From: Romanomermis culicivorax | Lineage: Eukaryota > Nematoda > Enoplea > Mermithida > Mermithidae | Assembly: GCA_963922205.1 (NCBI GenBank) | Contig: CAWUHX010000022.1 | Span: 496,001-560,000, forward strand | Reading direction: 5' to 3' | DNA: 64,000 bases | In this document: piece after piece, positions 33,524 through 60,060 of the stretch | How the letters are laid out: each line of letters starts with the position of its first letter | Numbering within the stretch: the stretch's first letter is position 1 | Made by a program: the position numbers and the translations under genes | The notes under the pieces: generated by a model | Told to the model about the DNA's origin: nothing | Database searches by the model: none | The model's input: the letters and a program-made list of their open reading frames with translations, nothing else

Positions 33524-36500
33524 TCAAAAATGAATCACAGGTTTATCAAGCTTACTAATTTTCACAATCTTATGCTTCAAAAAGTAATTCTCAAAAGCTT
33601 TTTGGTCCATGATTTCAAAAAGTCGAAGCACAGTTTTTTGCATATTTTTCCTAAACAATTCCCAAATATCTACCAAACTATCATTCTTTTCATACCGTTG
33701 TCTCGTCAGCCATATACAATTTTGTGCCATATGTAAAACAATATTGGCCACAGTCAGTTGTTCCTCACTACAAGAATCTAGTTTCAAACCAAAGACAAAA
33801 TTCAGTATATTTACTTTGAAATTTTTATAATTTTTTTTCAAGAGTTGTACAATCTTTACCCAAAAATCTGTCAGTCTTGGACATAAGACTATTATGTGCA
33901 AAACATCTTCTTTACAGGACTCATTTTGTGATATACAAAATTTACAGTTTGGATCTTTGTAGTTATTCATATGATTAATTTTGGATCTAGTCAGAAGTAA
34001 CCGGTGTACAATTGCAAAATGAAGATTTCTTGTACCACCATCCAAAAATTTGCACTTTGATAAGCTTAAAAGTTTATTTATATCCAATAAACTTTCATTT
34101 AAATTTATTACCCAATAGGACATTGGCTTTTCATTGGTCAGATTTCCTTTTCTAATACAAAAATACAACAGTTTTGTGGTTACTTTATTCAAACTGATCA
34201 CTTTATTATTCAAGATAACTTCATTTTTATCTGTGTATCTGAGACCAGTTTTAATTTCTGCTAATCTAATTTTTTTGTACAATTCTGGAACATTTAGTGT
34301 GTTCAATTGCCTTTTAGAAGTATTTCTATCTTTTTCATAAAAGTATTCAAAAATTTGCATGTTCGTCATTTTCAACCTTCTGTATCTAAGTAAAAGCATC
34401 AAGCTCATGGCTTTAATTTTCGCAGGAACATCAGTAAGATTTATGCCTCCCAATTCTACAGGTAGTTTTAACGTTTTAGTTGCAACAAAACTCCCTTGGC
34501 TAGATGTTGCCCAAATGAAACTTGCAGAAGATCGTTCAATGTTTTTTACGAAACCTGGTGAGACCTTACAAAAAATGGATGCATACCATAACTTGGAGAG
34601 ACAATACGTATCAATTATTTTTGCTCGTGCATAATAGGAAACATTCAAACTAATAGTTTTTGTTTTAATCTTCTCAAATTCGTGAGAAATACCATTAAGG
34701 TTTTCTAGACTGCTAGTGCCTAGTTTATCGAAATAGATTCCATAAATTTTAATCTTTTCTACAATAAATTCTTTATAAATATCGGGAACCTGGATATTTA
34801 TAGCATTGCCAAAAAGTAAAATTTTTGTCTTTGCTTTTTTTAGAAATGCACCACTAATCTTTTGGAACATTTCATATATTTGAAAGATTCTTTGTACAGA
34901 TTGAAAATCTCCAACAAAGAAGTTTGTGTCATCAGCATAATTGCATAGTTTTACTGATTGGCTTAAAATTTTTATTCCATTAACTGAAATATCCCTTCTA
35001 ATAAAATTACAAAGTACCTCAGAAGCCAAAACATAGATTAAAGCTGAAAGTGGACAACCTAGCCTAATTCCTCGACCGATTTTAAAAGGGAACGTTTCAT
35101 AACCATTAATCAATAAAGACGAAGTTACATATCCACTTTTGTATATCATTTTTATCCACCTTATAAATTTTGAACTAAAATTAAAATACTCTAATGTTCA
35201 AAATACAAAATGCCATTCTATTATATCAGGAGCAGACATTTGATCCACTGAAAGTAAAATTCCAGTTAGGTCTTTCTCATTTACATAATTGATTGCACTG
35301 TAAATGATATTCAAGCCATCTCTAATGTCTCTTCCTTGTACTGCACATGTTTGATTTTGATGAACAATTTTAGGCATAACTTTTTTAAGACGATTAACAA
35401 GAATTTTTGCCAAAATTTTATATTCAACATTTAACATGGAAATTGGTCTCCAATTGCTTCTCTCAGTTTTGTCTCTATTGTTTCCTTTATAAATTTGAGA
35501 GATGATACTGTGATACATAGACTCACAAAGTTTACCTTCTTTAAACATGGTCATGTAAACATTTTTTAAAACAGGAACTAGTTGATCCAAAAATTTTAGA
35601 TAAAATTCTATAGGGAGACCATCACTACCTGGAGACTTTCCCTTTTTAAAGGATTTTATAGCAAGTTTTACTTCAGTTTCAGAGATGTCTTTTTCAAAAT
35701 CTTGATTGTCACTTTTGTCTACTGTATTAGGAGGCTTGACATCAAAGAAGGAAGTCTTCTTATTTGTGTCCTCAATAGTTCATGTATAAAGTGTACAATA
35801 CTGATTATTGAATTCGCTTAAGACTTCCAACTGATCTTCCAAAAGAGTACCATCTTGCTTTTAAATGCTAGATATTATCCTATTTTCAGCAGATCTCTTT
35901 TGCAACATTTTTTCTGTTGCAAGAGAAACTCTATCGGAGAGAATATCTTGGTAATGTGTTTTCCTTAATTTGGCTTTAATGTCAGATTTAGTTAAAATTT
36001 TAAATTCATTTTTACTCTCTTTCAAAGATTTCAAAAATTCAAGATTTCCTTGTCTTTCCCTTATTCTGTCTTGTAGCATATTTTTTATTTTCTCAAGTTT
36101 TATTTTTTTCTGACACAAAATTTTTTGTTGTTGCCTTTTAATTCGGGCAAATTCCCATTTGAAATCAACTTTAAAATTTCCCCATTTATCCAGTGAATTT
36201 TCAGCAGACTCACTGTTTACTCTATTCAAAAGCTTTAAAAAGTACTTTTGATCAACTCATTCAACTTTTGATCTTTTGTTTCTGAAAGACTTATATCCAT
36301 TTTCCAAAAGGATAGACCAATTTTGACATCAAGAAATTTTGTGTTAAATTTGATAACAAAACATTTATGATCATTAATTGTATAATCAATTACACTGTGT
36401 GACTTGTAGGCATCAGAAAGTGGTCGACTTGAATAAATTCTATCAATTCGAGAACCAGTTTTATGAGCATGTGAAACATGGGTGAACAACTTTAACTTTG

Positions 36501-36900
36501 GGTTATGAAATCTAAAAACATCCAAGAGATTCAATTTATTTTTAATCAACTCAAAAATATCGGCACCAGTTTCTTCTTGCTTAGAATTTCTTAAGGAATT
36601 TCGATTTAGATCTCTATTTTCAACAAAATTAAAATTACCTGGTACTAAAATTTCATCATGATGTCGAAAATTAGTCGAAATGTCCTGGTAGAGTTTCTCA
36701 TAAAACGGTTTTCTTTGAGTTTCATTTGCTGGAGCATAAAGTACCAATATATAAAAAACGTTTTCCTCAACTTTGCAGATAAAAGCAAAAGCTCGACCTT
36801 TAATTTCAAAAATTTTTCTCTCAATTTTCAGTCTGGAAGAAAGATTCACTAACAAAGCTATTCCTGCAGAATGTTCAAAAGGTGAAAAAGGCCCTGTCAC
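33524..36900 (-). pseudogene. Broken L1/Tx1-like LINE polyprotein (endonuclease-RT)
   Basis: Four - strand segments make one LINE ORF2 broken by frame changes. At 36235-36900 is the AP-like endonuclease (EHSAGIALLVNL, LYAPANETQRKPFYEKL, VPGNFNFVEN, SRIDRIYSS, NDHKCF), without its N-terminal part. At 35861-36229 is a lysine-rich linker. At 35198-35640 is the RT start (GKSPGSDGLPIEFY, SNWRPISMLNVEYKILAK). At 33524-35149 is the rest of RT (GIRLGCPLSALIYVLASE, NYADDTNFFV) and a C-terminal cysteine/histidine region (NCKFCISQNESCKEDVLHII). The FADDT-like box and C-terminal CCHC-like region point to the L1/Tx1 group. The reverse transcriptase A box reads VDQMSAPD, and the endonuclease GDFN and SDH motifs read PGNFN and NDH, so several catalytic motifs are altered. 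The 5' end stops where element G begins. Confidence 0.8.
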
Positions 36901-37982
36901 TTGGCCACCAGGTACCGCGCGGCGCCGCTTTTTCTATTCATACTAACAAGCGGTACCGCGCGGCACCGCGCGTCGTCGCGCTGTGCCTTGTCATACTTTA
37001 CCGCGCGGTACCGCGCGGCGCCTTACGGCGCCGCTTTTTTACTTTTGGATTTTGCTCTTGTCAAAAAATGTATATTGCTCGTCTCGACAAATGCGAAATA
37101 CAAAAAATACGAAAAAGATGAAAAAAACCGAGAAAGTCGAAAAATAAAAAGCGCAAAAGAAAAATCAAATCAATCATTCCTGCACGGTGTAGATAGAAGC
37201 TTGCAAAAAGCCTAGTCTAAAGATTTGGGCTCTTGCTTCAATTTGCTTCTCATTCCAACGATTAATAGGTCTTGAATTGCTAAGAAGTATCAATTTATAT
37301 AAATTAATTTTAAAAAATTGAATATATATACACGATTATTCATTCACATATGTGCTATATACAGGATTCAGATCTGATCTGGGTCCGGTCGGACCTGCTG
37401 TTTAGGACCCAGATTCAAAGTCGATCCATTCTTTCCCTAGTATTCGGGAAATCGGGGCGTTCAGGGAATAGGAACTAATGAATTTTTCGGGGAAATAGGA
37501 AATTTATTCATTATTCGGGGAATCGGGACCTACAGGGAATATAGATTTTCGGACAATCGGGATATTTGCGGAAAAGGGACGTTGGGGGAATAAAGACACA
37601 ATCAAAATGTGTGAGTACACTTGCTATAGGAATATATGTACACCTACTTTGGATATTCATAATTTTTACACATTAATGTCTTCATTGCAAATTAAGTGAT
37701 CAACTTCAAAGTAAATCTCATTGAAAATTGAATAATCAATTTGGTAAAATATTTTGGAAAGTGTCAGAATTCACCATTCAAGTGAAAATTATCATTCAAC
37801 TACATGTATGGATGTCACAGTATGCAAGAATATGTTACAACAACAGTATGCTGCAACTTTACAACACATAACTTGTGCGAAAATTTCGTTTCAGTTGAAA
37901 CTTGATGGCGGCGCCTCAAAAGTTACAAAAACCTATTCATACTTCAAACGTGGTACCGCGCGGTGAAGTATGACAGGGCCTT
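36888..37982. mobile_element. About 1.1-kb TIR element G with GGTACCGCGCGG words
   Basis: The left terminus AAGGCCCTGTCACTTGG and the right terminus GGTGAAGTATGACAGGGCCTT are inverses. The left subterminal region holds several copies of GGTACCGCGCGGCGCCG-type words, and the right end holds one. An A-type element end (37.4-37.6 kb) lies within. There is no transposase frame. It interrupts or abuts the LINE. The LINE 5' part does not continue on its other side. Confidence 0.65.
37430..37605. mobile_element. Solitary right end of a B-type TIR element (F)
   Basis: Repeated words such as TTCGGGGAATCGGGAC lead to a terminus AAAGACACAATC, the right-end pattern of elements A and B (GATACAA or GACACAA). 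No left partner was found. It lies inside element G. Confidence 0.45.
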
Positions 37983-42891: not shown

Positions 42892-43769
42892 TCGTTGAAT
42901 ATTTAGGGCAACTTTGAGAATACGACTCTTGAAAAATGCGTTATCAGTAGTGCCGCTCTACATATACAGGTAGAGCTTATGAATCAATAATATTTAAAAT
43001 TTTCTGTATTTACAAGGTTCGAAAACATGTTCAAAAAGGGTTTTATTGATTTAGACGAAGGTGTACATCTAAAGACTATCACAATTCGCGAAATATCCGC
43101 GAGCTTAAACTTTTAAACCCTTATGTGTAACAGAGTCCAGATCCAGCTCAAGGTAGAATATTCCCTGAATAGGCCGTTGATTTCAGGGATGATTTCAACA
43201 TATAAATCATAAATCATACATTCAGCCAGCATATAAATGTGAAACTCGTGGAGAGATGAAAATGTTTTACGTCATGATGCAGCAGGCAAGAATTCCGATA
43301 GGTGGCGCGATAGCGTCAACCTAAAATATACTTGGCCCCTAAATTTCACGTCGCCCCACCCCAGAGCCAAGACGGTGAGAGCTAGAACCTTCGGGTTTTT
43401 TTGCATAATATCGGGCATAGGGGCAAATTATGGGGTGCCTTTTGTCATTTCGCCTCTATCTGCAAGTGGTGCTCGGTGGGGCCCCGAAAACATGCAAAAA
43501 CGCACTTTTGAGGCCACCCAGTTCCAGCATGCCCAGCAATGGGTGTGGCATATCCAAACTTTATACTTCGGCCAGAGCATCTTAGGACTGCAATCTCAAA
43601 TGAGATTTTTTATTTTTTTAAAATATGGCCTCAATTCAATTATATGGTGGTCCAAAGTCCCGGGAAACGCGAAATTCCCCAGTTTTGTAATATAATACAT
43701 ACGGCTTCAAAAAAAATTTTTTTTGCAGCATGATGCACTACTAATTTTTTGCAGTTTCAATTTAACCGG
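42892..43769. other. Intronic or intergenic stretch left of the retrotransposon
   Basis: There is no recognisable gene. From about 43315 to 43690 the base composition is clearly more GC-rich (with runs such as GGGGCCCCGAAAACATG), and a + frame of 106 codons is open, but I recognise no protein. A decayed mobile element is the likeliest explanation. Confidence 0.35.
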
Positions 43770-43824
43770 AAGCCTTATTGGGACTTTTGGGCTGTAAGGG
43801 TTTTCAACCATTGGGAATTCGATG
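43770..43824. repeat. Left remnant of the 97-bp array, split by the retrotransposon
   Basis: AGCCTTATTGGGACTTTTGG and then GCTGTAAGGGTTTTC match the leader at 58722-58755 that opens the second array. The remainder of this unit continues at 57277 beyond the element, beginning with the duplicated GATG. Confidence 0.8.
43821..43824. repeat. Target-site duplication GATG, left copy
   Basis: It matches 57277-57280. The uninterrupted paralogous array unit at 58760-58775 reads TTTGATGGACACGGTC with a single GATG, confirming that the second copy arose at insertion. Confidence 0.85.
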
Positions 43825-44618
43825 TGTCAGAGGGTCAATTCCTCTGACCTTTGGTCCTCTAATTACCTCACTTTCATTTTCTAAAGTTCCTTTGTTGTTA
43901 AAGTGCTTTCATTTATTCTTAGGTAAACAAACCGGTAAAACGGTTTGTGTCACATACATTTTTTTGGTTCAAAATACATAAATGGTGGCGCGAATGTATT
44001 GCATGCAACTGGCAAGTCGATGTTAGACGCATTGCAGTATGTTTTTTTCATTATTAATTTTACTTATTATTGTCATCTGGTCGCTCTTTTTATTGCGTCT
44101 TCGGAGAAGACTCGCGGTAACTGAGGAAGGATTGAGAGCGCATTCGCCATTCGGATTATTGTGCGCTTTTGGATTTCGCGTCGCGGATTCATCTTGAGGA
44201 CTCCCGCGACCTGAGGAGATTTTCGATGTTCAAACTTGATCGAGGAGATTAGTGAGTAGTGGTTCAGGAGTTAGATAGACCGTTTTGTCTTTGGACAAAC
44301 GTTCAGCTTAGGTTGTGGATTGAGATACCCAGAAGTCCCTGGGGCTCTGTGCACAGGGACGAAAAGAAGGGTCAGCGACATAGGGAGGAAACCAGCGTTT
44401 GTGTTCACACTTTGGCACTTTGCATTCCGTTTATCACTTGCTCTCACTGTTGTATTTACACTGTTGTCATTTCCAAAATAAATATCTTCGTTCATCAAGT
44501 CTCCGTGACCTGCAGTAGGATCGTAGTCAGTACCGGGTTAGCATCAGGGGCCGTACCAGATTGGATCTCCCGAGAACCGCAGCTAGGTAGCCGAGGGCAT
44601 ACAACCACATATACGACA
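43825..44618 (+). repeat. 5' long terminal repeat (794 bp)
   Basis: It begins TGTCAGAGGGTCAATTCCTC and ends CACATATACGACA. It is nearly identical to 56484-57276. The first 24 bases form a hairpin (GTCAGAGG then CCTCTGAC, loop of 7). A polyadenylation-type signal AATAAA lies at 44477-44482. It should carry the promoter for the element; I did not identify a convincing TATA box. Confidence 0.95.
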
Positions 44619-44637
44619 TTGGTGACTTGTACAGCTA
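44619..44637 (+). other. Candidate tRNA primer-binding site
   Basis: Immediately after the LTR comes T and then TGGTGACTTGTACAGC. A TGG start at this position is the standard form, since it pairs with the CCA end of a tRNA. The identity of the tRNA is not resolved. Confidence 0.6.
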
Positions 44638-44642
44638 CAAAG

Positions 44643-44648
44643 GTAAAG
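44643..44648 (+). promoter_or_regulatory. Candidate splice donor just before the gag start
   Basis: AAAG followed by GTAAAG lies directly upstream of the gag-pol ATG at 44650. A donor here could make a subgenomic message for the downstream exonuclease ORF, as env messages are made in errantiviruses. This is inference from position and sequence only. Confidence 0.3.
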
Positions 44649-44649
44649 G

Positions 44650-47600
44650 ATGAAGAAAGTATCGAAACCGAAATTAACGGTGCGGAAACAACCTGGAAGA
44701 CGACCAAAGGTAACATTATTACAAACCGAAGTGACTAAAGAAGATCACGCCGAACGAATGGCAAATATGGAAGCAACCATCGAGCAAGTAGCAAAGAAAT
44801 TCGCGAATCTACCCGAGGATAGTGATAAAGATCAAACTATTGATGCGGAAACATATGATTATGCGAATCACCGGATACAGATGTCCTCTGATTCAGTATC
44901 ATCCTTCGAGAAAATTAGTTTACCCCCCGAAACGAATGCGGTATCATTTTATAATTCAAGATATACGCCTACAATACCGAAAAGTGATGCGAAGATCGAT
45001 ATCGAAACAAAACCAAAGAACGAAACTGAAAGGCTAACGAATGGAAATTTACAAGATGTGGCCACTTTAGCTATCCTGGAATCCATGCAAAGAGCAGTGG
45101 ATAAATTGACGAATGCTGTTAATGTAGAAAGAACGAAAGCAGCACTTCGAGAACAAGAAATACTCGAGCAACTAATGCGAGAAAGAGCAGAACGTAAATT
45201 ATGGGAAGAAAAATTTCGTGAGCAAGAGCAACAAAACTCAAGAAAGATCATGGAAGAAGTTGAAAAGCAAATGCGGGAATTGATGAAGAAAATGAATACG
45301 AAACCCGACGAAAAGATATATAATCCCGGAGATATGGAAATACTTCAGTCTGAACCAGTCAAAGACCATTTAGACAGGAGTTTGGAAAGAAAATTGAATT
45401 GGTTTGAAAACCATTTGGCTCAGGCTCAGGCTCAAGGTGCCCAACATCGAATGATGGAAGAGGAAATACCAACCACGTCATGGAATCATGGAAGAGAACA
45501 ACCCACATCTGGAGGCAGCCCTCGAAATCGGCAAGAGTATGGAAGATATTGTGAAGATCCCGAAAAAAGAATGAAGATAATTCTAAGCCGAATGAAAAAT
45601 AAAGAAATATCCGATAAAATGGAGGCCCCAGAAATACTCAATTTTTTCGCCTGTTTGGAAGGCACATTTAAACCTGAAGATACAGAAGACCTAAGAATTG
45701 AAGTACTCTGGCGGTGTTGCGATTTTGAAACTTCGACTTATGTGGACAAGAACGGCAGCTATGAAGAAGGAAAAGCAAGTGTAATTAGAATGATCGCCCC
45801 CAAAATGGACACTCCTGCACTTAGAAGGGAACTACATGATATGAAAAAACGAAAAGGGGAAACTACAAAAGATTTTTTGCCACGAATAAAGACTTATGTG
45901 CATTTATTGAACTATGAAAAAACGGAAAATGAAAGAAATCGAATTGTTATCGAAACATATTTTCACAAGGCTCCAGTATACGTCCAAACTCGAATGGAAG
46001 GTCGGCTCCACGAATTCAAAAATATCGCCTCTTTGGCAGAATTCGTAAATAAATTGAAAGCCAATACGACGGCCTGGAAGGAATTCAGCGAAGAACAAGA
46101 AGACAGCGAAGACGATCGGCTGAATCAAGTCTATGAAAATAGAAGATTTAATAATTTGCAAATTCGTCAGCAAGATAGCAGTATAGGTCAACAAAAACAA
46201 ATTGCAAGGCCTCAGCAAATTTTCCCACCGCCATCAGTATTTCAAAACCCCGTATCTCATCAAGATATTATGAAGATGGTCAATGATGCAATTAGGAATC
46301 AGGGCCCTTCAGCTCTTAATCCTTGGGGAGTCAATAGTAATCCTAATAATGTTCAATACAATAATTTACCTGACCGAGTTTTGGGAAATCCATATCGTCG
46401 ACCATATTGTTCCTACCATAAATTGAATAGCCACTCGTCCGAAAATTGTTTTATTCTTCACCCTGAATTGATTCAACCAACGGATCAGGGAAGGTCGTGG
46501 AATCGTGGTAACAATTTTTATAATCGAAATTTCGACCATCGTGGTGGCTTCGTAAATCGTGGACGAGCTGGTTTCGCAAATTTTGGTCAACGGATGCCAT
46601 ATCATAATAATGTGGAACAGAATTCAAATGTGGCATATTATTATCGTCAAAATAATGTCCCGCAGCCACCGCCAAATATCGTACCGTCAACATCATCGCA
46701 ACCGATCAACAATCCTCCGAATAATTCCATAAATGTCATAAATTCACAAGAGGCTAAAAAACAAGATAAACCGGAGGTTATAGCCTTAGATGGAGTTCTT
46801 ATAGAAAATTATGAGCTAAGTCTGGCGAATGTTATCAATTCTACCTCAGAAGCAAAACCTAGACTCGCCAATGATAACGAACATCTATTTTTGGAAAATT
46901 TTCGCAAATGTCAACCATTATTAATACCCGTCAAAATATGTGGAGAAGAATTCAAAGCTCTAATCGATACGGGAGCGCAATCTAGCTTTATGAGGACAGA
47001 TACAGCATCGAGATTACTGAATATATCAAAGACAAAATTTCCTATTTTAAATTCAGTAGTAACAGCGGTTGGAAAACGCGTAACAACATATGGTCCTACA
47101 TTTATATACGTCGGAACTGGTTTTGGAAATTTTCTCGCTAGATTCGCATTGCTAGATAACCTGAACGAAGGTATTATATTGGGTCTAGATTTTCTAACCC
47201 ATCCTAGTATACAGGCGTCTATTGATTTTCGAAAAGGCCACATACGCCTAGTGAATGTAGAAAGACAGATAATTAGTGAAATGTTATTCGATGATGCGCA
47301 AATGCCGTCGCGGTTGCCAATCCCTACAAATCCGATGGTTTTGGATTATGTATCTATAAAGGAGGAAATTAAGGAAGAAGATCTGCCTGAATTAGAAAGT
47401 GACGACGATCAAGAACAAGTAATGCGAATTACCGAAATGAACGAGGAAACTTTTATTTGGACAAAAAATGGGACATATATTCCCCCGAATACCACTTCTT
47501 TTGTGCAAGCTGTGGTTTGGCCACAGAAAGATTGGACAAAGGGTCCCATAGTGGTAGAAGAAACAGGGAAGGATACTTTATTCGACGTCGATGCCTCAAT

Positions 47601-50112
47601 TGTGGACGCTAGAAATAACAATTTCCGAATTCTACTCATAAACGAAACGAACAAAGGGATAAAATTGCGTAGCAATGAGTTGATAGCAAAATCAAAAACG
47701 AAAGTCGTGGGGCCAGAATTCGACGAAAAGATACATCAACTTCAGTCAGAACCTCAAATTCAACAGCAGAGTGAACCAGAATTCATCAAAATCATAACGC
47801 AACTAGTGAAAGAATCAAGTATCGATCGAGAAGGGCAACAACAACTTATGAACGTCCTACTTAAACATAGGCATGCATTTAGTATGAAAAACAACCCTTT
47901 GACGATGACCCATGAGGCACAACATAGAATCGACACAGGAGACGCGTTGCCGGTCCAAAAGCACTACTGGAGAGCCCCTATAATGCAAAGAGATATTATC
48001 CGTGAACATGTAAAGGATATGATGGAAAAAGGGGTCATTGAGCCCTCTAGAAGCCCTTGGGCTGCACCATTGTTTTTAGTGGGCAAGAAAGATGGCACTT
48101 TGAGACCAGTAGTTGATTACAGAGGAATTAACCAAGTAACGAAAGATGATAAATTTCCGATACCACGAATTGACGACTACTTAGATGCGTTAGGAGGTGC
48201 ATGCTATTTTTCGACTTTGGATTTAAAGTCCGGGTACTGGCTGGTACCAATGCATTCAGAATCGAAGGAAAAGACAGCATTTATATGCCAAGATGGTCTT
48301 TTCCAGTTCAAAGTAATGCCATTCGGGCTTAAAAATGCTCCCGCAGAATTTCAGCGTCTCATGGAGCGAATCCTGTATCCCTATGTGTGGAAAATATGTT
48401 TAGTATATATCGACGATGTGATAATTTTCTCAAAAACCGTCGAGGAGCATTTAGAAAATATAGAGACTATTTTTCGATGTCTGACAAATGCGAACCTTAC
48501 ATTGAAACCTGACAAATGTTCCTTTATGCCAGCCAGCGTAAAATTTTTAGGCCACATATTGGATAGAAATGGAATGTCAGTTGATCCCCAGAAAATAGAA
48601 GCGGTCAAAAATTTTGAAGTACCGAAATCCATCAAGCAGCTACAGAAGTTCTTGGGATTGGTACAATGGTCTAAACGGTTCATACATAACTTAGCTTTCA
48701 TCGCCCAGCCTTTATTTAAAGCCCTCGTAAAGAAGAATAGGAAGGAGAAGTTCGAACTTTCGGAAGAACAGTTAACGGCGTTTAAGGATGTAAAAAACGC
48801 CCTAATGATGGCACCCTTCCTTCGGTACCCAATATTTGATGGATCGGCGAAATTTGTGATTCAAACTGACGCCTTGGGGACAGCGATAGGTGCGATTTTG
48901 TACCAGGAAACACAAAATGATCGCTGGACAATAGCCTATTCGAGTAGAGTTCTAAACGATGCTGAAACAAGATATTCCACAACAGAGAGAGAGTGTCTAG
49001 CCGTGGTCTATGGGTTCAAGCAATACCCACACTACGTTATGGGGTTTAGGGTCACAATTAGAACAGATCATAAACCCCTTACGTGGCTTTCCGCAGAAAA
49101 ACAACAAAATCAAAGGTTGTTGAAATGGGCTTTATATCTTGGACAGTTTAACTATACATTCGAATATGTAGCCGGATGCGAAAATGCCTTTGCAGATTTT
49201 TTATCAAGATCCAAAGAGAAAGAGAAGATCCGAAACAAGAAGCAAGAAAGTAATGAAGAAATTGAGGATAAAAATGTGAATATAGAACCAGAATGCATGG
49301 CAGTAATGAGAGCCATGACGAGACAAATGCTTGAGCCCGAAGCACAAGAGACATTCATTGACCCCCCACCACCAACGCAAAAAGAAATAGATCAAACGCC
49401 AGAGGAAGCGAAAAAGGAGTCCGAATTATTCTCTCTGGAATTGATCAAGAAACAACAGCGATTAGACTCGAAGTTGGTGGATATTTTCCGGAATATCGGT
49501 GAAAATAGCTCAAGAAAATACTTCAACAGTTTTCACTTGGAAAATGAAGTACTATACCGGGAAAATATCCATGGAAGAAATCAGTTAGTAATTCCCTCCA
49601 AGCTTAGGCACCTGGTTCTGCATCAATACCACGGCGATACCTTAATGGGCCATCAAGGGATAGATAGAATTATTGCCGCAATTGGGAATAAATTTTGGTG
49701 GTCAAATATGGAAGACGACATTATTAAGTGGATAAAATCCTGCGTCGTATGCCAATTATGTCGCCCAATAGCAAACCCAATTCAACCACTCAACCCCATA
49801 CCTGTTTCCTACCCTTGGGAAATAGTAGCTACCAATGTGGTTAGTATTTCGCCCCTACGAGAAAAGAGACCATACGTTATCGTATTTATGGATTATTTCA
49901 CGAAATGGGTGGAGGCCAAATGTATTCCCGACCAAAAAGCCGATACCATAGTAAAGGCATTCATGGAAAAAGTAATTTATACCCACGGGACGCCAAAACA
50001 CTTGCTGAGCGACCAGGGCTCAGCATATATGTCTGAATTAATGCGCGACGTGTGCGATCTCCTGAAAATAAAGAAAATAAATATGACACCATACCACCCG
50101 CTCCCCCCATAG
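44650..50112 (+). CDS. Gag-Pol polyprotein (Gag, protease, RT, RNase H, truncated integrase)
   Basis: One frame of 1,820 codons from ATG at 44650. Gag occupies roughly residues 1-690, with a charged coiled-coil-like region (about 150-270) and a CX2HX4HX4C zinc-knuckle variant near residue 587 ([14 protein letters not shown]). The protease has DTGA at about 773. The reverse transcriptase has YIDD at 1253-1256, preceded by [12 protein letters not shown]. RNase H begins near 1400 ([16 protein letters not shown]). The integrase has the zinc domain (about 1657-1700, ending CVVCQLC) and a core. In the core, the first catalytic Asp position reads Asn (VATNVV, residue 1729), the second is present (LLSDQGSAY, 1788), and the frame ends just before the catalytic Glu. 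Gag and Pol are fused with no frameshift. The copy is therefore defective for integration. Confidence 0.93.
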
Positions 50113-50533
50113 TCTATTGTATGGACACGAGGCAAGGTTTCAGATAGATAATGATATCCCAAGGCCAATAATTGTTCAAAACAATTACGAGACGTATAAA
50201 TACATGTTAACGGAACACCTCCTTAACACGTACAAAATTATAAATGAAAATCATAAAAAATCGGCGGCCGAAAGAAAATTACAGTATGACAGGAAGGCTC
50301 GCGAAAAGACGTTCCAAACGGGTGAACTTGTCCTCTATCAGAAAGGAATTATAAAAGGGAAAGCCGACACAACAAATGACGGTCCCTATGAAGTAATTGA
50401 AACACAGAATTTAGATAAAAATGTCATAAAAATACGCTGCGCCGGGAAACCAGATTCGTGGGTACAAATAGTTTCTGTAAATCGCGTAATGCCTTTTGTT
50501 ACGCGGACACCTGATTTTTACTGTAGTTTATAA
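50113..50533 (+). pseudogene. C-terminal integrase fragment, out of frame with gag-pol
   Basis: From [10 protein letters not shown] onward the frame resumes Ty3/Gypsy integrase sequence and ends with a GPY/F-type module (GPYEVIETQNLDKN). Compared with the family, the stretch between TPYHP and SLLYGHE, several dozen residues that include the catalytic Glu, is missing, and the reading frame shifts by one at a C-rich junction (CCGCTCCCCCCATAG). An internal deletion in this copy is the simplest reading. An assembly error at the C run is possible. Confidence 0.85.
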
Positions 50534-51230
50534 TTCATTTTATCGTTTTATTTGTGCGTTCCGTTCAAATTTTGTTTTATGTGTCCTTTTTTTTAATGTT
50601 CCCTGTATTATACCTTTCCCATTTTTTTCCCTTTTTCTCCCTTCGAATTTTTTATCGTTCTAACTTATTTTTGGCAATTTTATGGCAGTTTTAGGCAGTT
50701 ATCAAAAAACTACGATGCCGAAAAATTTTTTTTAATGGGCAAAATTATATTTTTTCACGCGCTCGGTGTGAAGAAATCAAAATGTTTATAAGTCCCGAGA
50801 AAACCCTCCCCGAGTTATAGATCCCATAAAGTCGAAGGCGTTATGGAGCTATTTTTTAGATTTCATTTGCAAAATATTACTATATTAATTATTTTCGTTG
50901 ACTGGAGGATTTTTGAAGTCCAAATTCGAACGTGTTATGGCCACGTCCAATTTCGTCGAAGTAGACAATAGTTTCGGGCAGCCGCAAGACCGCCAAGACA
51001 GTACCAATTTTCAAATCAGTAGTAAGTATGAAAGGGTAAAATATGTGGTAGAAATTTTTATTCGGAATGGGACTCTAAATTGACTGCGCGGCAATTTATA
51101 TGCCGAGGATTTTGGGTATTTGAGAGACTGATCAACTCGCCTATGTACAAATTTATTCTTGAGCATTTGAGTCATTTTGTTTCGAAGTTATTATCAAAAG
51201 AATAGGTAAAAAGTTGTGTGAAAATTTTAA
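50534..51230 (+). other. Untranslated spacer between pol and the exonuclease ORF
   Basis: About 700 bp with no long frame. A T-rich stretch at 50575-50660 could serve as a polypyrimidine region for an acceptor, but no single AG stands out. A 61-codon frame (50898-51083) lacks an ATG at its start and is not supported. Confidence 0.5.
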
Positions 51231-51239
51231 GATTATAAC

Positions 51240-54200
51240 GTGCGAAGATTGGTGCGGTCAACAGACATTTTTAATTATTTCACGTCGTTATTCGGTGGGC
51301 CTCACACGGCCATCGAAGAACCTATGTTCCTCACGCCCGAAAATATTAAAGCGTTTAATAAGGCGATAAACCAATCCAAATTCAGAGGACGAATAGTCAT
51401 CGCGTTAGATACCGAAAGTGGAAGGAAACCCAAAACGCCGGGTTCGAAACCCAGCGACACGTTGAGACTCCTAACGATTTGGACTATGTGTGGGAAGAAC
51501 TTCATAGTAGATTTAAAGTTTTGGGACAAGGAACATTTTCATAAGATATACGGCACAATTTTTCGCCAGGAGAATATCATCGTTGGCTTTCACATTCGCG
51601 AAGACATCATGCTAGTCCTGACTAGATTCGGATATTTAGATCAGGAAAGAGAGCTAGCCCGAAAAAAGCGTGACAATATCGATTATATCTTATCATGCTG
51701 TGTCTACGATCTGGAAATCGTATTGGCCGAAATGAAGGATAAAGCAAAAACAAGAATGATAGGAATTAGTCCGGAAGCCCTGAACTTAAAGGCCCTTATG
51801 ACGGAAATTTTATTTCTGTGGGCTGATGCCTTTAAAATTTCGTGGGGCCAATTGAGCTCTTTAGAATTTCGGCAGCTAATGGAAGCGGACAAACTTAACA
51901 TAGAAGTTTTGCGATACGCGACGCTCGACGCGCGCGGATCCCTTCTATGTTTCTTGGCATTGCTACGGTACGGATTCGCCATTGATGTGCAAAACTGTTT
52001 CAAGTTGTATCCTCACAATACCATGGAACCAGAGTTGGTTGCCGATTTAGCTCGAAGATTTCGAGAAACGTTTGAAGATAAATATACGGACCCGCAGTGG
52101 AAAGGTGCATACGGAGTAGAGGAAATGACGGGCAATATCAATGCGTTATATTTTATGATGCGTGGGGAAGCAATCGCAACTTATAAATTATCGGAAGAAC
52201 AAGCGCCTGGAAATTTCTATTGCCCTCCGCATTTCTCGAATAGTGACATCGACCCGCAACCAGTACCCCGCGGTTGGTACCCGTGGATAGAAAGAAAGGT
52301 AAAAGCATCACGGAAAAGGAAAGATACAGAAGAATCGGAAGAAGGGCCCATCAACGATTGGGATTTAGAAGATATACTAGCTGCACGGCAATTCGGACGA
52401 CCAATAGAACCAAGAGAGATGGAAATGAAACAAGGAAGGTGGCCTAGTAAAGTGATTCACTTTACAAATAATGTACGGGAACAGGTATCGTCGCTTAGGG
52501 ACTATTACCATAAAAAAATCAATCGATCGATTGTCCCTGTGGTCAAGGAGTTGTATGAGAAGAATATAAATCCCCTCATTTATTTCTTGTGGCCTCATTC
52601 GGCGCAAGAATGGAGATCTTGGGTGCCAGGATTTACGTCGGGTATGTGGTCCTCGGTATGGAGAAACGAGCAAGAACGAATTGAATTTATGAAATGGATG
52701 GGCCAAGATCTTGTGAACAACAAAATGACCGAGCAAGCAGAACAAATGATGGAACGATATCCGAAGGTACGCACGCAGAAGTCGGTCCAAAATATTTTCT
52801 GCGTACTACCTATAAAATGGATACCGCGTTCCTTAAAGGAACCCGAAGAAGAAATAGAAACGGATTTATGCGAAAATTCTATTTATTTTTTGAATCATAA
52901 CTTTTATAATGTGTTTCACTTTTTGCATGTTCACCCGGCTAGCAAGAATCTCATTTATTGGAATGTTTCCCCGTCTATATTCGAGGCTAAGGACCTATGG
53001 GTCCCCAGCACTTCTACAACTTTCAAATCTGTAACTAAGTGGGACGACTCGGATCTGTTTCCTCAAGTAGAAGTTGTGGTCCCCGCTAGCCAGGGTCCTA
53101 CGGAAAAAACTTCGAAGGAACAGATGGAAATTGTACCCTCTAAAACCGATAATTTGAATGTTTCAGGTACCGAAATGGAACAGGAAAAGCCCGTAGAGGT
53201 GATCATCGCGGATCCCCCTATTGCCAATATACCCGCTACTGATAGTAAAAGTGTCGTAGAGGAGGAAAAAGTAATGGAAATAGTCGAGCCGGAAAGCAAA
53301 ATACAACCTGATGTGGAAAAGCTGACCGAGCAGATAAAAGAGATGAAAGAAAAGATAGAAACGTTGGAAAAAGAGAAATATGGAAAGGCTGCGATTGAGC
53401 TAGCAAAGCAATTGGAGAATGTTAATGCCGAAGAAGAAGAGACAAGCGAAGAACCATATGTGGAAGTCGTTGCCGAAATCGGGAGTGAGGACGAAACTCC
53501 TGAAACTAATGTTTTGCCCGCACCGCCGGTATATGCCAAGGCTGGTGGGCAGAATGTAGAAAATATAACCAACCCCGAGAAATTCGCGAGAGTAATGTAC
53601 AACAAAAGGCAAGAAAAAGAGAAACGAATGGCGCAAGAGGAGAATAAAGCCGAATTGGACAAAGTGAAAAATGGAAAGTTCCAACAACCAGCAGGAAATC
53701 CGAATGACAAAATCAAGTATAGACGAGGCCTCGGAAAACGCGGGCAAGTCCTGAAAAAAGCTTTAAAAGAAGAAAAATACGTCGTAGATTTCCAATATGG
53801 TAGAGTATCTCTGTCGAATCCGTGTGTTCAGAAATACCTTGCGCACATGGATCCCGCTTTGGATGAAGAGGTAGCTCTTATGACAACGGACTTGATAAAT
53901 CGTATCTACGATGAAGCGGGAGTCGAAATAGAAACAATACGCTACTATGAATTGCAATTCCACGTGTTGCAGGCGAATCTACCTGAAAAATTGTGGAACA
54001 TTTTCGAACTTCAATTGGCCGAATGGACTACAACTCGGCCTCCATGGAAAGCGTACGAAGCCGCGGTATGGGCCTGCGCCTGTTTATTCATGAAATTGTC
54101 GCGGTTAAGCAGAATTCCACAAAATTTCGCCGGATTCCACTATCAGGCTCATGCTTACGTTACTATGAAATTACACCGCGAATTTAACGCCAGACAAGAA

Positions 54201-54794
54201 GGAGCAGGTAGTAATTTTCATACATTATACGCCTCTTGCCAGTCTAAGGCAGCGGGACTAGCATATACAATTGCTAAGGCCGTCCTGCAGGATAAGAAAG
54301 ACCCCAAACCGAAATATGCGAATATTCAAGTCTGGAAGAAAGAAACTGATAATACTGATCCCCTCATATGTTTTTGGGAAGTGATCGATAGAAAGAAGGC
54401 TCATGATCTTTTAGAAGTCGAAAAAAGCTTAAAAAAGAAAATCGGATACCGAGTCAAGCACCCCTACAGTAGGCCTGCGGCAGGTAGGGTATCCAAACAT
54501 TGGACTAGAAAAGATGATGATAAACGAAAAAGAGAAAAATCGGTGACGCCAGAGAAGGAAAGGAAAAGGAGATACGAAAGTCGGCACCGGGACGAAAGTC
54601 GCTATGAAAAATCGATGTCGAAAGAAAAAAGACAAAGAGAAAATGAAGAAGAAAGTTGGCGCAAAGAAATTGAAGAGTATGAAGAAAAGTTCAAACGAAA
54701 GGAAAAAGAGAAAAGAGAATTGGAAGAACGGAAGGGGAACCGAAAGTCTCGAAGCCGAAAGAGGACACCGGGATATTATCAACATGATGATTGA
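51240..54794 (+). CDS. ORF3: RNase D/WRN-like DEDDy exonuclease protein of an LTR retrotransposon
   Basis: The open frame starts after a stop at 51228-51230. The first in-frame ATG is at 51324, giving 1,156 residues (numbering below counts from 51240). Residues 50-245 form a DEDDy 3'-5' exonuclease domain. ExoI is IVIALDTESG with D57 and E59. ExoII is IVGFHIREDIMLV with D122. ExoIII is YATLDARGSL with Y226 and D230. Between them lies the usual L-x-L...W...L helical region (ISWGQLSSLEF). All four metal-binding acids and the Tyr are present. Residues 260-580 are Trp-rich and of unknown fold. Residues 590-750 are acidic with a coiled coil. Residues 840-1060 form a second unknown domain (NPCVQKYLAHMDPALDEEV). 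Residues 1075-1184 are an Arg/Lys/Glu/Ser-rich tail. It lies where env sits in errantiviruses. It likely acts on nucleic acid during replication or against host RNA; the role is inference. Confidence 0.9.
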   Translation: MRRLVRSTDIFNYFTSLFGGPHTAIEEPMFLTPENIKAFNKAINQSKFRGRIVIALDTESGRKPKTPGSKPSDTLRLLTIWTMCGKNFIVDLKFWDKEHFHKIYGTIFRQENIIVGFHIREDIMLVLTRFGYLDQERELARKKRDNIDYILSCCVYDLEIVLAEMKDKAKTRMIGISPEALNLKALMTEILFLWADAFKISWGQLSSLEFRQLMEADKLNIEVLRYATLDARGSLLCFLALLRYGFAIDVQNCFKLYPHNTMEPELVADLARRFRETFEDKYTDPQWKGAYGVEEMTGNINALYFMMRGEAIATYKLSEEQAPGNFYCPPHFSNSDIDPQPVPRGWYPWIERKVKASRKRKDTEESEEGPINDWDLEDILAARQFGRPIEPREMEMKQGRWPSKVIHFTNNVREQVSSLRDYYHKKINRSIVPVVKELYEKNINPLIYFLWPHSAQEWRSWVPGFTSGMWSSVWRNEQERIEFMKWMGQDLVNNKMTEQAEQMMERYPKVRTQKSVQNIFCVLPIKWIPRSLKEPEEEIETDLCENSIYFLNHNFYNVFHFLHVHPASKNLIYWNVSPSIFEAKDLWVPSTSTTFKSVTKWDDSDLFPQVEVVVPASQGPTEKTSKEQMEIVPSKTDNLNVSGTEMEQEKPVEVIIADPPIANIPATDSKSVVEEEKVMEIVEPESKIQPDVEKLTEQIKEMKEKIETLEKEKYGKAAIELAKQLENVNAEEEETSEEPYVEVVAEIGSEDETPETNVLPAPPVYAKAGGQNVENITNPEKFARVMYNKRQEKEKRMAQEENKAELDKVKNGKFQQPAGNPNDKIKYRRGLGKRGQVLKKALKEEKYVVDFQYGRVSLSNPCVQKYLAHMDPALDEEVALMTTDLINRIYDEAGVEIETIRYYELQFHVLQANLPEKLWNIFELQLAEWTTTRPPWKAYEAAVWACACLFMKLSRLSRIPQNFAGFHYQAHAYVTMKLHREFNARQEGAGSNFHTLYASCQSKAAGLAYTIAKAVLQDKKDPKPKYANIQVWKKETDNTDPLICFWEVIDRKKAHDLLEVEKSLKKKIGYRVKHPYSRPAAGRVSKHWTRKDDDKRKREKSVTPEKERKRRYESRHRDESRYEKSMSKEKRQRENEEESWRKEIEEYEEKFKRKEKEKRELEERKGNRKSRSRKRTPGYYQHDD

Positions 54795-55316
54795 TTGGAC
54801 GTGTCCTACTCCAGTCGAACGGCTTCACTGGATAGGCCTAGAGCCAATGAATCGAGTCAACAAGGAGTATCCATGGCCGACCGGAATGCAATGATGAAAG
54901 CGCAGCAGCAGCAATTACCGTATATGCCGCCGAACTACCCGGGATTGCCTATGGTAGGAGTTGATTGTATGAATCGCCCTCTTTTTTCAGGCCAAGTATT
55001 GCCCAATCCAATGATACCTCCTCCACCGCAATTTCAAGTACCGCAATTTCCGGTTTTGCAATTCCAGCCGGGGCAACCGCAATATTATCATCAATTCTTG
55101 GTTCTGCCCAGCCTTCAAATGCGGCTGCCCACGATGATTCCGCCGATACGTAATGTACAAAGTGAAGAAAGAATGGAAATTCCGGGGACTTCGACGGGTA
55201 CGCAACCGCCCCAAAGACCGCCGTCAACGGGAAACCCCGATTACATATCGCCGATGAAGAGAGAAAACGGTATCGGTCAGCCTGGGCGGGACCACAGTGG
55301 TAATAGACAAAAGTAA
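54795..55316 (+). CDS. ORF4: proline/glutamine-rich extension in frame with ORF3
   Basis: This frame begins directly after the TGA stop of ORF3 (54792-54794) with no frame change and runs 173 codons to TAA. The first ATG is at 54873 (MADRNAMMKAQQQQLPYMPP). The composition is Pro-, Gln- and Phe-rich (PPPQFQVPQFPVLQFQPGQP). It has no known domain, membrane segment or signal. Either it is translated separately from 54873, or by readthrough of the UGA, or ORF3 and ORF4 were once one ORF of about 1,358 codons split by a nonsense mutation in this copy. Confidence 0.6.
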   Translation: MDVSYSSRTASLDRPRANESSQQGVSMADRNAMMKAQQQQLPYMPPNYPGLPMVGVDCMNRPLFSGQVLPNPMIPPPPQFQVPQFPVLQFQPGQPQYYHQFLVLPSLQMRLPTMIPPIRNVQSEERMEIPGTSTGTQPPQRPPSTGNPDYISPMKRENGIGQPGRDHSGNRQK

Positions 55317-56470
55317 ATTTTTTGTTAAAAGTGACCCCGCTCTTTGTGAGGTCATCATAAAAGTAATTATTTCACTTTGTAAATTTTTCCGATATTTCAA
55401 AGGTTACTTATTTTTTCTTTTCCGAGCGTTAGTATTACCAAATGAAAAAACCAGTTGTGCCACTTTAAAATTTGCCTTAAAATTGCCTCTCGTACTAATC
55501 TCAGTAGTTTGTTTCGTTTATTTTTCCGTCTGTGTTTTGTTTTATTCGAATCTGCGCGAAGATATTTTGTACCTCTTTTTCGGTGAATTTGTAAATTATA
55601 ATCCAATTTTTGTATTTTCGTAAATTTTGACCATTCTTTTCCTTCCAAAGCAGTCACCAACTAACATCGTGCAGGGTGTAGGCAGCTTTCACGCAACCAT
55701 TTCTATATTTTTCTTTATCCTTTTTTCCAAAACATATTTTCACTTCAAATTCTTTTTTTTTGTGGCACAGACCGTGTTATCGGTTTAAGCTTACCTTTTA
55801 ATAAGGCAGATTCACTTTAACAACAAATACCATAAATATTTTTGGTTCAAAATCTAGACAGCCAAAGGGCCAGAGGATTTGGTTTTCAGGCATCCTTTCT
55901 CCCTGGGGCCAGATAATACCAAAGGCGTTGGGGGGCCAGTGTCCGGCCAAGGGGCCAGAGGAGCAACGGCGGCGGAAATTTCGAAAGTCTTGCGGGCTCT
56001 CCACATTCAACAACCCCCCCTCCGGAGAGGACGGAGACGAAGGCCACAATCGGTGATGGAGGAGCCGCCAATACTAAGCACATCGACAGCAGTGGGGAGC
56101 AGCCCACAACCTAACTCGGGCACCGCGGGGGTCGCCGCCGGTCAAATGATTTTATTTTTATTTTTGGTCAAATTCAGCCCGAGTGCCGCGAATGCTATTC
56201 GTTCAAACATTCTATTCTTTTTATTCGGGTAAATGGGCCCACGGGGCATTCTTATTAGTGAACTTTTAGCGTTGGGGGTAGCATCGGGCGCCATCGACCC
56301 CATAGTTGGAAAGATACCGTTCGATACGGGCGTTTTAGTTTTATTGGTTTTATTGCGTCAACGGCGTGTAGCGTCGTTTTTGAACATTTGGAGTCCTCGG
56401 CATCGGGAGTCTGGGGCCCTTGGGGGACCTCCTGACTTTTCCCTTCGCTGGCGGGAAAAGTCTTGCCTTT
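55317..56470 (+). other. 3' region of the retrotransposon without a secure gene
   Basis: A T-rich stretch (55320-55800) is followed by a GC-rich one (55900-56480). An ATG-less frame with one hydrophobic segment (LVLISVVCFVYFSVCVLFYS) spans 55297-55623. A frame at 55879-56232 (first ATG 56056) ends in TAA directly before an ATG at 56233, whose frame (MGPRGILISELLALG) is hydrophobic and runs into the LTR. These could be remnants of a small membrane protein, but I cannot support any as a gene. Confidence 0.4.
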
Positions 56471-56483
56471 GGGGGGGGAGGGA
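56471..56483 (+). other. Polypurine tract
   Basis: GGGGGGGGAGGGA directly abuts the 3' LTR, the standard site for plus-strand priming. Confidence 0.85.
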
Positions 56484-57276
56484 TGTCAGAGGGTCAATTC
56501 CTCTGACCTTTGGTCCTCTAATTACCTCACTTTCATTTTCTAAAGTTCCTTTGTTGTTAAAGTGCTTTCATTTATTCTTAGGTAAACAAACTGGTAAAAC
56601 GGTTTGTGTCACATACATTTTTTTGGTTCAAAATACATAAATGGTGGCGCGAATGTTTTGCATGCAACTGGCAAGTCGATGTTAGACGCGTTGCAGTATG
56701 TTTTTTCATTATTAATTTTACTTATTATTGTCGTCTGGTCGCTCTTTTTATTGCGTCTTCAGAGAAGACTCGCGGTAACTGAGGAAGGATTGAAAGCGCA
56801 TTCGCCGTTCGGATTATTGTGCGCTTTTGGATTTCGTGTCCCGGATTCATCTTGAGGACTCCCGCGACCTGAGGAGATTTTTGACGTTCAAACTTGATCG
56901 AGGAGATTAGTGAGTAGTGGTTCAGGAGTTTGATAGACCATTTTGTCTTTGGACAAACGTTCAGCTTAGGTTGTGGATTGAGATACCCGGAAGTCCCTGG
57001 GGCTCTGTGCACAGGGACGAAAAGAAGGGTCAGCGACATAGGGAGGAAACCAGCGTTTGTGTTCACACTTTGGCACTTTGCATTCCGTTTATCACTTGCT
57101 CTCACTGTTGTATTTACACTGTTGTCATTTCCAAAATAAATATCTTCGTTCATCAAGTCTCCGTGACCTGCAGTAGGATCGTAGTCAGTACCGGGTTAGC
57201 GTCAGAGGCCGTACCAGATTGGATCTCCCGAGAACCGCAGCTAGGTAGCCGAGGGCATACGACCACATATACGACA
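56484..57276 (+). repeat. 3' long terminal repeat (793 bp)
   Basis: It starts TGTCAGAGGG and ends TATACGACA. It matches the 5' LTR with about 17 substitutions and one T-run length difference by eye. It is followed by GATG. Confidence 0.95.
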
Positions 57277-58020
57277 GATGGACGTGGTCACTTTACACGG
57301 AAAATGACTCTGGGTGTAAACAAGTGTATTTTCGTGATTTTTTAGTGGAAGGAGTTTTCGAATGCGGGGAATTCATTAGATGCGGTCACTTTACACAAAA
57401 AGATTATCCCGGTTGTAAACAAGCGTATTCCCGTAATTTTTGTGGAAGGGGTTTTCGACTGCGGGGAATTTGATGAATGTGATCACTTTACACAAAAAAT
57501 TATCCCGGGTGTAAACAAACGTATTTTCCTGATTTTTTGGTGGAAGGGGTTTTCGATCACGGGAATTAGATTAATGCGATTACTGTACACAAAAAATTAT
57601 CTCAGCTGTAAACATGTTTATTTTCGTAATTTTTGTGGGGATAGGTTTTTGAATACGAAGAATTTGATGAATGCGATCACTTTACACAAAAAATTATTCT
57701 GGGTGTAAACAGGCGTATTTTCGTGACTTTTTTGTGAAAGGTGTTTTCGACCACAGGGAATTTAATGAACTTCCACTTTACACACAGAATTATATTGAGT
57801 ATATTTCAAATGTATTTCTGCGATTTTTTTGGGGAGAGGTTTCTGACCATGCGGAATTCAATGGACACAATCCCTTCACACAAAAAAATTTCTGTGTGTA
57901 TTTAAAACAAAGGTATTTCACCGGTTTTTTTGTGCTGAGGGGTTCTTGTTTATGGGGAATTCAACGAAAATGGTCACTTTACACTCTGTTTACAACGTGT
58001 TTAAAGTTCTATGCGGTTTA
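57277..58020. repeat. 97-bp tandem array, first block
   Basis: About seven and a half units. The motif CACTTTACAC recurs at 57289, 57387, 57484, 57581 (as TACTGTACAC) and 57679, giving a period of 97-98 bp. Each unit contains TTTACAC and, about 16 bases on, GTGTAAA, an inverted pair able to form a stem of 7 bp. Units near the right end are more diverged. The period is not a multiple of three, and the peptide frames seen are artefacts of repetition. Confidence 0.9.
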
Positions 58021-58721
58021 AACATCTTTTTCTTTCACCGAAAGTGAGAATTCGTAGCTTTAAGATTTTTTATTGTTTCTTTGATGTGAAGATGACCAAA
58101 TTTAAAACTTCAATGCGCTTCTATGAAGGTTCTCAGGCATGGTAGAGGCCCACTAAAAAGAGGTGAACTAGTTTATTAGACAATGCACCGATAGGGCAGA
58201 AAAAAGAAGGATATACTTGCTTGGATAGTTGCCAAGCTAAAAAAGGATCGAACTAGATTTTTCAGGTTTTGGGTTGGAATTGGAAAAAATTCACTTTCCT
58301 TATAATGGATTTTCATTCTTTCTCAAAAAAAATTTTCCATGTCTGTGAAATAATGTATTCTGCAGCTGAGTGCACCAACACACTTTCCAACCCAGCATGT
58401 GGATCTCCGAAATTTTGAGGAGAGCACAGGGCTGGACCTTGGTTTTTGGAGTTTTTTGAGACAAAAAATTCAAAAAAAATTGACCAACTATTTTTTCTCG
58501 TAGCAAATTTTCCAGTTTCAAAACCTTTGGGGTAGTTTGTACCCCCATGTCTTCCCTCACTTATGTGTGCTTCTAACTGCGTTGAACTTTTTTGCTAAAT
58601 TTAGTGTCAATAAAACAGGAATCAACTGTGGGAAAATGGCACATAAAATTCCACTCAGCTTTTTTAGAAAAAGTCTTCTTAGAACTGAATCGATTGTGCA
58701 AGATCAAATATACCTGTAGCC
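58021..58721. repeat. Non-tandem tail segment, copy 1
   Basis: About 700 bp following the first array, repeated at 60061-60790. Shared strings include GATGACCAAATTTAAAACTT, GAGGCCCACTAAAAAGAGGT and TGTATTCTGCAGCTGAGTGC. It has no recognisable coding content. Array plus tail forms a higher-order unit of about 2 kb. Confidence 0.85.
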
Positions 58722-60060
58722 TTATTGGGATTTTTGGGCTGTAAGGGTTTTCGACTATTGGGAATTTGATGGACACGGTCACTTTACACGAAAAATTATC
58801 CCGGGTGTAAACAAGCGTATTTCCGTGATTTTTCAGTGGAGGGAGTTTTCGACCGCGGGGAATTCAATAGACGTCCTCACTTTACACAAAAAAATTATCC
58901 ACAGTGTAAACAAGTGTACTGCCGTAATTTTTTTGTGGAGGGGATTTTCGACCACGAGGAATTCAATGAATGTGATCACTTTACACCAAAAATTATCCCG
59001 TGTGTAAACAAACGTATTTTCGTGATTTTTTGCTGGAAGGGGTTTTCGACTACGGGGAATTTGATGAATGCGATCACTTTACACAAAAACTTATCATGGT
59101 TGTAAACAAACGTATTTTTGTGATTTTCTATGGAAGGGGTTTTCGACTGCGGGGAATTCAATGGATGCTTCACTTTAAACAAAAAAGTTATCTAGGGTGT
59201 AAACAGGCGTATTGCCGTAATTTTCTTGTGGAGGGGATTTCCGACCACAATGAATTCCATGAATGTGATCACTTTACACAAAAAAATTATCCCGTGAGTA
59301 AACAAGCGTATTTTCGAGATTTTTCAGTGGAAGGGGTTTTCGACTGCGGAAAATTCAATGGATACGTCTTTTTACACAAAAATCTATATGGGGTGTAAAC
59401 AAGCATATTTTTGTGATTTTCTATGGAAGGGGTTTTCGACTGCGGGGAATTCAATGGATGCGTCACTTTACACAAAAAAATTATTCTGAATTTAACCAAA
59501 CCTATTTTTGTAATTTTTTGTGGAAGGGGTTTTCGACCATTGGTAATTTAATGAATGCGATCACTTTACGCAAAAAAATTTTCTTAGGGCGGGGTTTTCG
59601 ATCACAGAGAATTTGATGAATGCGATCATCTTACAAAAAAACTATCGTGGGTGTAAACAATCGTATCTTCGTGATTTTTATGGAAAAGGTTTTCGACTGC
59701 GGGGAATTCAATTCAACGAATTCAATGCATGTGTCACTTTACACAAAAAAATTATTCCGGATTTAACCAAGAATGTTTTCGTGAGTTTTTTGAGGGAGGG
59801 GTTTTCGACCACTGGGAATTTAATGAAAGTGATCACTTTACACACTAATTCATATTGAGTGTAAACAAATGTATTTCTGCGATTTTTGAGGGAAGATGTT
59901 TCTGACCAGGGGAAATTCAATGAACGGAGTCAGTTTACACGAAAAAAGTCATTTGTGTAAACAAAGGTATTTCTGCGATTTTTTGGGTTGAAGGATTCTA
60001 AACTATGAGGAATTCAATAGATATGGTCACCTTTCAGTATCTTTACAACGTTTTTTGAGT
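58722..60060. repeat. 97-bp tandem array, second block
   Basis: It opens with the leader AGCCTTATTGGGATTTTTGG and contains about 13-14 units of the 97-bp repeat, including some deleted units (for example near 59580). The first unit gives the uninterrupted version of the retrotransposon target. Confidence 0.9.

Follow-up and report, generated by a model that had tools for sequence, protein, structure and literature searches.

What does the long open reading frame (ORF) that follows the pol gene of a Ty3/Gypsy element encode in Romanomermis culicivorax, a mermithid nematode that parasitizes mosquito larvae (PMC10879605), and of what use might its product be to the element? The frame, here termed ORF3, spans 1184 codons (51240-54794, + strand) of a 64,000-nucleotide stretch of DNA (positions 496,001 to 560,000 of contig CAWUHX010000022.1, assembly GCA_963922205.1), hereafter the window, and is placed between pol and the 3' long terminal repeat (LTR). 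An earlier reading of the letters alone, here called the sequence-only reading, had assigned an exonuclease to it. The analysis reported here suggests that the element probably encodes, in the env position, a third protein bearing a likely DEDDy 3'-5' exonuclease of the RNase D/WRN/MUT-7 type, for which the N-terminal 240 residues of the protein most likely account.

ORF3 is a recurrent component of a high-copy Ty3/Gypsy family

The window element (43825-57276) is a Ty3/Gypsy LTR retrotransposon. The order of domains in its gag-pol frame (protease, reverse transcriptase (RT), RNase H and integrase, by Pfam) is that of Ty3/Gypsy, and its LTRs, target-site duplication and polypurine tract agree with the class already given to it by the sequence-only reading. 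Base composition would yield a stop-free run as long as ORF3 with a probability of about 10^-34, and 300 shuffles produced no run longer than 206 codons.

The long-read assembly of R. culicivorax comprises 359.1 Mb in 595 scaffolds (PMC10879605), and the genome searched here amounts to 359,112,060 bases in 595 contigs. Using the exonuclease domain as query, 2453 candidate places were found; 150 of these were scored, and all 150 span residues 1-238 or 1-239 of the domain with 87-100% identity. The ORF3 family of the window is a high-copy family in this genome. Moreover, pol or the integrase C-terminus lies directly upstream, on the same strand, in all 30 of the copies that were fetched, these being the best-scoring ones and including that of the window. 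A genome search with the LTR, in which 40 of 1339 candidates were scored, gave 41 matches among those listed; when 23 exonuclease rows were compared with these matches, nine were seen to be flanked by two LTRs and four by one. The 5' LTR of the window element starts 7499 bp ahead of the exonuclease domain, and the same distance is 7507-7651 in 8 of the 10 other copies with an upstream LTR match (9263 and 18543 in the remaining two). Overall, the upstream distance falls within 7499-7651 in 9 of 11 copies and the downstream distance within 5120-5165 in 10 of 11. Gene models that fuse gag, pol and ORF3 (P0017) or integrase and ORF3 (P0027) account for two of the 31 available.

These counts bear directly on two doubts voiced by the sequence-only reading, namely that no other Gypsy copy might carry the frame, or that a host gene had been fused to the element by an assembly error. 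Other Gypsy copies do carry ORF3, with 150 scored matches and pol adjoining in each of the 30 copies fetched. The same figures, together with the long-read nature of the assembly, contradict the idea of a host gene joined to the element through misassembly or a single local insertion; nothing was found in its favor, and we regard its probability as negligible.

Selection and residue conservation in the window family

A comparison of nonsynonymous and synonymous substitution rates (dN/dS) across copies, as proposed in the sequence-only reading, reveals strong purifying selection on the exonuclease-like domain. The 27 distinct domain sequences form 351 pairs, which are non-independent; 290 of these pairs fall within 0.05<dS<2 and give a median dN/dS of 0.040 and a maximum of 0.170, the window domain itself yielding values of 0.03-0.17 against the 26 other distinct copies. 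The maintenance of the domain by selection indicates that the ORF3 protein is used. The five candidate catalytic residues, which lie exactly where the sequence-only reading had placed them, are nearly invariant in these closest copies: D57, D122, Y226 and D230 are identical in all 27 sequences, and E59 is found in 25, the two exceptions being copies with a stop inside the domain. Such stops occur in 3 of the 30 fetched copies.

A second LTR family with a clear exonuclease

A search of the genome with PF01612 returned 80 matches at E<=0.001, all above the Pfam cut-off and the best at 50.1 bits; eight of them were examined, and some of the others may be host genes. The eight examined belong to a second LTR family, here termed family B (loci L083-L098, for instance L093:4626-10000 and L094:1-2152). 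The exonuclease ORF of family B, which matches PF01612 above the cut-off, occupies the same ORF3 position as in the window element. The family's own integrase lies upstream of it in seven of the eight loci, none being shown at L085, and the window pol, used as query, finds a match near the exonuclease in four of the eight. Each about 7.52 kb long, the four copies for which longer stretches were fetched have two LTRs that are 96.6-99.8% identical in the aligned pieces (>99% in two of the four) and 4-bp duplications, as read by eye, and no similarity was detectable between the LTR of family B and that of the window element. Downstream of one family B copy, at a distance of about 3.7 kb (L094:5897-10000), lies a different Gypsy-type pol that is 40-46% identical to the window pol.

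In family B, one open ORF1 of 1155 codons contains, according to Pfam, a zinc knuckle, an RNase H and an integrase zinc domain just under the cut-off, and no RT was detected by Pfam in this one ORF1 scanned. Likewise, tblastn with the window pol picked up parts of RNase H and integrase in copies C440 and C344 of family B, whereas two other copies showed no part of the element. It is thus likely, if not certain, that family B is devoid of RT. Its exonuclease displays the motifs LDAEF or LDTEF, NCD and YAALD, with the full DEDDy set in all five aligned loci, and obtains its best PDB scores with WRN and MUT-7. This exonuclease is under purifying selection, with a dN/dS of 0.04-0.13 in 10 of 10 pairs drawn from five of the eight loci (dS >1 in six pairs).

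Is the window domain a DEDDy exonuclease?

In the window ORF3, motifs Exo I to Exo III are present with the right spacing and in the order seen in cellular RNase D, WRN, MUT-7 and Rrp6 (PF01612). Local hhalign comparison with 21 RNase D sequences (that of E. coli, 19 of its 80 fetched relatives and one from a phage) places D122 in the Exo II register, a result that none of 100 column shuffles equaled, and pairs GFHIRED with HAGSED of E. coli RNase D, whose D85 we take to be catalytic. Among the 22 family members scanned, one (P0001) shows a PF01612 match over the Exo I-Exo II half, and two of 31 relatives bear the UniRef name '3'-5' exonuclease domain-containing'. The best-scoring relative reaches 15.6 bits, so that the family lies under the curated PF01612 cut-off of 23.6 and, in addition, departs from cellular PF01612 exonucleases in its very long extra C-terminal part. 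A protein search with the whole ORF3 returned no match; relatives were recovered with the domain alone (22) and with a profile (30), all of them from R. culicivorax, in a database believed to hold few animals.

Several observations weigh against this assignment. The same motif spacing, within 5 residues, arises in 205 of 5000 whole-protein shuffles (4%); it arises 28 times in 5000 when the first 300 residues are shuffled, and a looser spacing turns up 1658 times in 5000, so that the motif by itself is weak evidence and was rejected as sole support. Unrelated families attain E-values similar to that of the PF01612 match in the same Pfam scan. hhalign itself gives the RNase D match a probability of 2.3%, and nothing sensible comes out of the global mode; the pairing of YATLD with YAALD of family B is also weak, 6 of 100 shuffles being equally good, and MAFFT yielded no alignment of the window family with family B. 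Neither the window protein nor its domain has a match in Pfam, NCBIfam or PDB, profile searches of PDB with window family profiles found no exonuclease, and none of ten further genomic copies matched any Pfam family. AlphaFold models are poor (mean predicted local distance difference test scores of 39.0 without and 44.5 with a 21-row alignment), and Foldseek found nothing for them at E<=0.001. Invariant columns make up 174 of the 239 in the genomic copies, so that invariance of the candidate residues adds little beyond dN/dS; D230 is retained in 9 of 12 database gene models, and in these models the five catalytic columns do not clearly stand out from the others in conservation, 2117 of 20000 random sets being equally good. 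Finally, as regards the association of ORF3 with the element, 19 of the 41 LTR matches are unpaired with ORF3, the other 22 being paired.

Two alternatives follow from this balance. ORF3 could be a structural or env-like protein that resembles DEDDy enzymes by chance, as its env position, the lack of a database match for the window protein and the frequency of the spacing in whole-protein shuffles might suggest. Nonetheless, the in-register profile match to RNase D, the P0001 match and the presence of a clear exonuclease at the same position in family B render such a coincidence improbable. Alternatively, the domain could have a DEDD-like fold and act as a non-catalytic RNA-binding or ribonucleoprotein (RNP)-assembly protein. 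The divergence of the window domain from every cellular family searched and the long C-terminal part of ORF3, which appears charged on inspection, would be congruent with this possibility, for which Rodriguez et al. note a precedent in Maelstrom and EXD1 (PMC5408684). The near-invariance of the five candidate residues, broken only at E59 and only in copies carrying domain stops, and the full DEDDy set of family B argue against loss of catalysis, which we consider unlikely. On these grounds, the window domain very probably adopts a DEDD-type fold and, with less assurance, is likely to be catalytic; both judgments lean on family B, and the DEDDy fold in particular should be taken as likely but not proven.

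Putative role of the exonuclease

The sequence-only reading had listed the editing of reverse transcripts among the possible uses of the enzyme. A proofreading or trimming action on reverse transcripts within the particle would be consistent with the ability of DEDDy enzymes, such as WRN and polymerase proofreading subunits, to act on DNA ends (PMC5408684). Nevertheless, family B keeps its exonuclease under the constraint described above and RT was not detected in the copies examined, which makes a role in the element's own reverse transcription less likely and led us to rank proofreading below an action on RNA 3' ends. The family B enzyme might still assist an RT provided in trans, but we deem the proofreading hypothesis quite improbable.

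Tentatively, then, the most likely role for the ORF3 exonuclease would be one that favors the element by trimming or degrading the 3' ends of RNA. Such an activity might serve the maturation of the element's own RNA or RNP or, instead, the destruction of small RNAs or antisense RNA belonging to the host silencing system. Candidate roles that may be entertained are hence 3'-end maturation of element RNA, RNP assembly and interference with host small-RNA silencing. A bolder proposal, which we put forward as a rather doubtful one, is that strong selection maintains a DEDDy exonuclease as ORF3 in two families with unrelated LTRs, of which one apparently lacks an RT of its own. The enzyme would then serve a step outside reverse transcription, possibly as an element-encoded silencing suppressor that destroys the small RNAs or antisense RNA directed against the element.

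Relationship to known elements

The sequence-only reading knew of no described LTR element with this domain, which proved to be wrong. The Juno and Vesta LTR elements of bdelloid rotifers carry RNase D-like DEDDy ORF3s that were acquired at least twice (Rodriguez, Kenefick and Arkhipova 2017, PMC5408684), cases that are restated in PMC5718144 and PMC6431247, and the DnaQ-like exonuclease is listed among the well-known accessory domains carried by LTR transposons (PMC6338049, citing Novikova 2008 and Ustyantsev 2017). The kind of element analyzed here is therefore already known. DEDDy ORFs are also present in Athena Penelope-like elements, or Terminons (PMC5408684, PMC6431247), which, compared by description, share with the window element a retroelement-borne DEDDy 3' exonuclease and belong to a different retroelement class. 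For the DEDDy ORFs of Juno, Vesta and Athena, RNA 3'-end processing or a mut-7-like function has been proposed, catalysis being called undemonstrated (PMC5408684).

As in Juno and Vesta, a DEDDy-like ORF, putative in our case, lies downstream of pol in an LTR element. Rotifer ORF3s are typically expressed from spliced messages (PMC5408684), and splicing is predicted for that of the window. The window element differs in its host phylum (Nematoda rather than bdelloid rotifers) and in an ORF3 frame that far exceeds one exonuclease domain in length; furthermore, three rotifer lineages carry a dUTPase (PMC5408684), whereas Pfam finds none between protease and RT in the window gag-pol at E up to 1. 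In contrast with the strong purifying selection on the window domain, PMC5408684 describes no significant departure from neutrality, in a survey of env-like and GDSL ORFs and not of DEDDy ones. Literature searches confined to open-licence PubMed Central brought up no title or abstract opening that reports an ORF of this type in LTR elements of nematodes. As far as the literature searched goes, the new aspects are the nematode phylum, the abundance, the selection signal and the coexistence of two families in one genome. In the papers found, earlier DEDDy ORF3s of LTR elements come from bdelloid rotifers and are presented without evidence of importance to the element. The high copy number, the two LTR families and a dN/dS near 0.04 turn the use of the exonuclease to a retrotransposon into a testable question, and family B, with no RT detected, argues against proofreading as the obvious answer.

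Structure of ORF3 and organization of the window

The coordinates of the element and of its components are listed in Table 1. The sequence-only reading had described ORF3 as an intact frame of about 1,180 codons between pol and the 3' LTR; its length and location stand, but the frame, open as it is, is incomplete, ending at an in-frame stop and probably preceded by an exon and an intron. In particular, translation probably does not begin at the GTG at 51240, an ATG at 50937 being the predicted start instead. R. culicivorax gene models that reach this end begin with MATS/METS...QPQDRQDN...NYNVRRLV, and a similar N-terminus is encoded in the window from that ATG, split by the GTAAGT...AG intron; ORF3 is thus probably read from a spliced mRNA. 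As for the opposite end, 45 of the 150 genomic rows, as counted by eye and with no stop within the matched part, show a frame of 1355-1361 codons, which corresponds to the 1187 codons of the window, the stop and the 173 codons that follow, indicating that the window ORF3 is interrupted by an in-frame stop. In the longest copies, the third protein would have some 1,360-1,390 residues.

Table 1. Components of the window element, in window coordinates
Feature	Position	Strand	Basis or remark
Target-site duplication GATG, left	43821..43824	.	Direct reading; same as 57277-57280
5' LTR, 794 bp, TG...CA	43825..44618	+	97.7% identity to 3' LTR
Candidate primer-binding site (TGGTGACTTG...)	44620..44637	+	Suggested by position directly after LTR
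gag-pol ORF, 1820 codons	44650..50112	+	Pfam: aspartic protease, RT, RNase H, integrase zinc and core domains
Integrase C-terminal part, different frame	50087..50533	+	Integrase interrupted in window copy
ORF3 exon 1, ATG, N-terminal 28 residues, predicted	50937..51021	+	Resembles N-termini of annotated R. culicivorax relatives
ORF3 intron GTAAGT...AG, predicted	51022..51231	+	GTAAGT near same place in 27/27 distinct copies
ORF3 exon 2 to in-frame stop	51232..54794	+	Spliced reading would give 1215 amino acids
Putative DEDDy exonuclease domain, residues 29-267	51324..52040	+	Motifs, selection, profile comparison
Exo I motif DTE (D57, E59)	51408..51416	+	D57 in 27/27, E59 in 25/27 distinct copies
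Exo II candidate catalytic D122 in GFHIRED	51603..51605	+	27/27; paired by hhalign with SED of E. coli RNase D
Exo III motif YATLD (Y226, D230)	51915..51929	+	Each in 27/27 distinct copies
ORF3 frame continuing past stop, 173 codons, Pro/Gln-rich	54795..55316	+	Longer frames in other copies
Polypurine tract	56468..56483	+	Direct reading
3' LTR, 793 bp, TG...CA	56484..57276	+	LTR comparison
Target-site duplication GATG, right	57277..57280	.	Direct reading

Within the Gag part, positions 45127-45312 bear a weak resemblance to DUF7774 (E 0.0027, under the cut-off). The element sits inside an array of tandem repeats of about 97 bp (57288-59983, and 43765-43824 on the left flank). Elsewhere in the window, the minus strand holds an RT element in several open pieces at 33524-36933, with an RVT_1 match within 33527-35197 (E 1.3e-9), which we label as similar to long interspersed nuclear elements, and a 16-17-bp minisatellite forms several short, separate arrays on both strands at 14992-19371.

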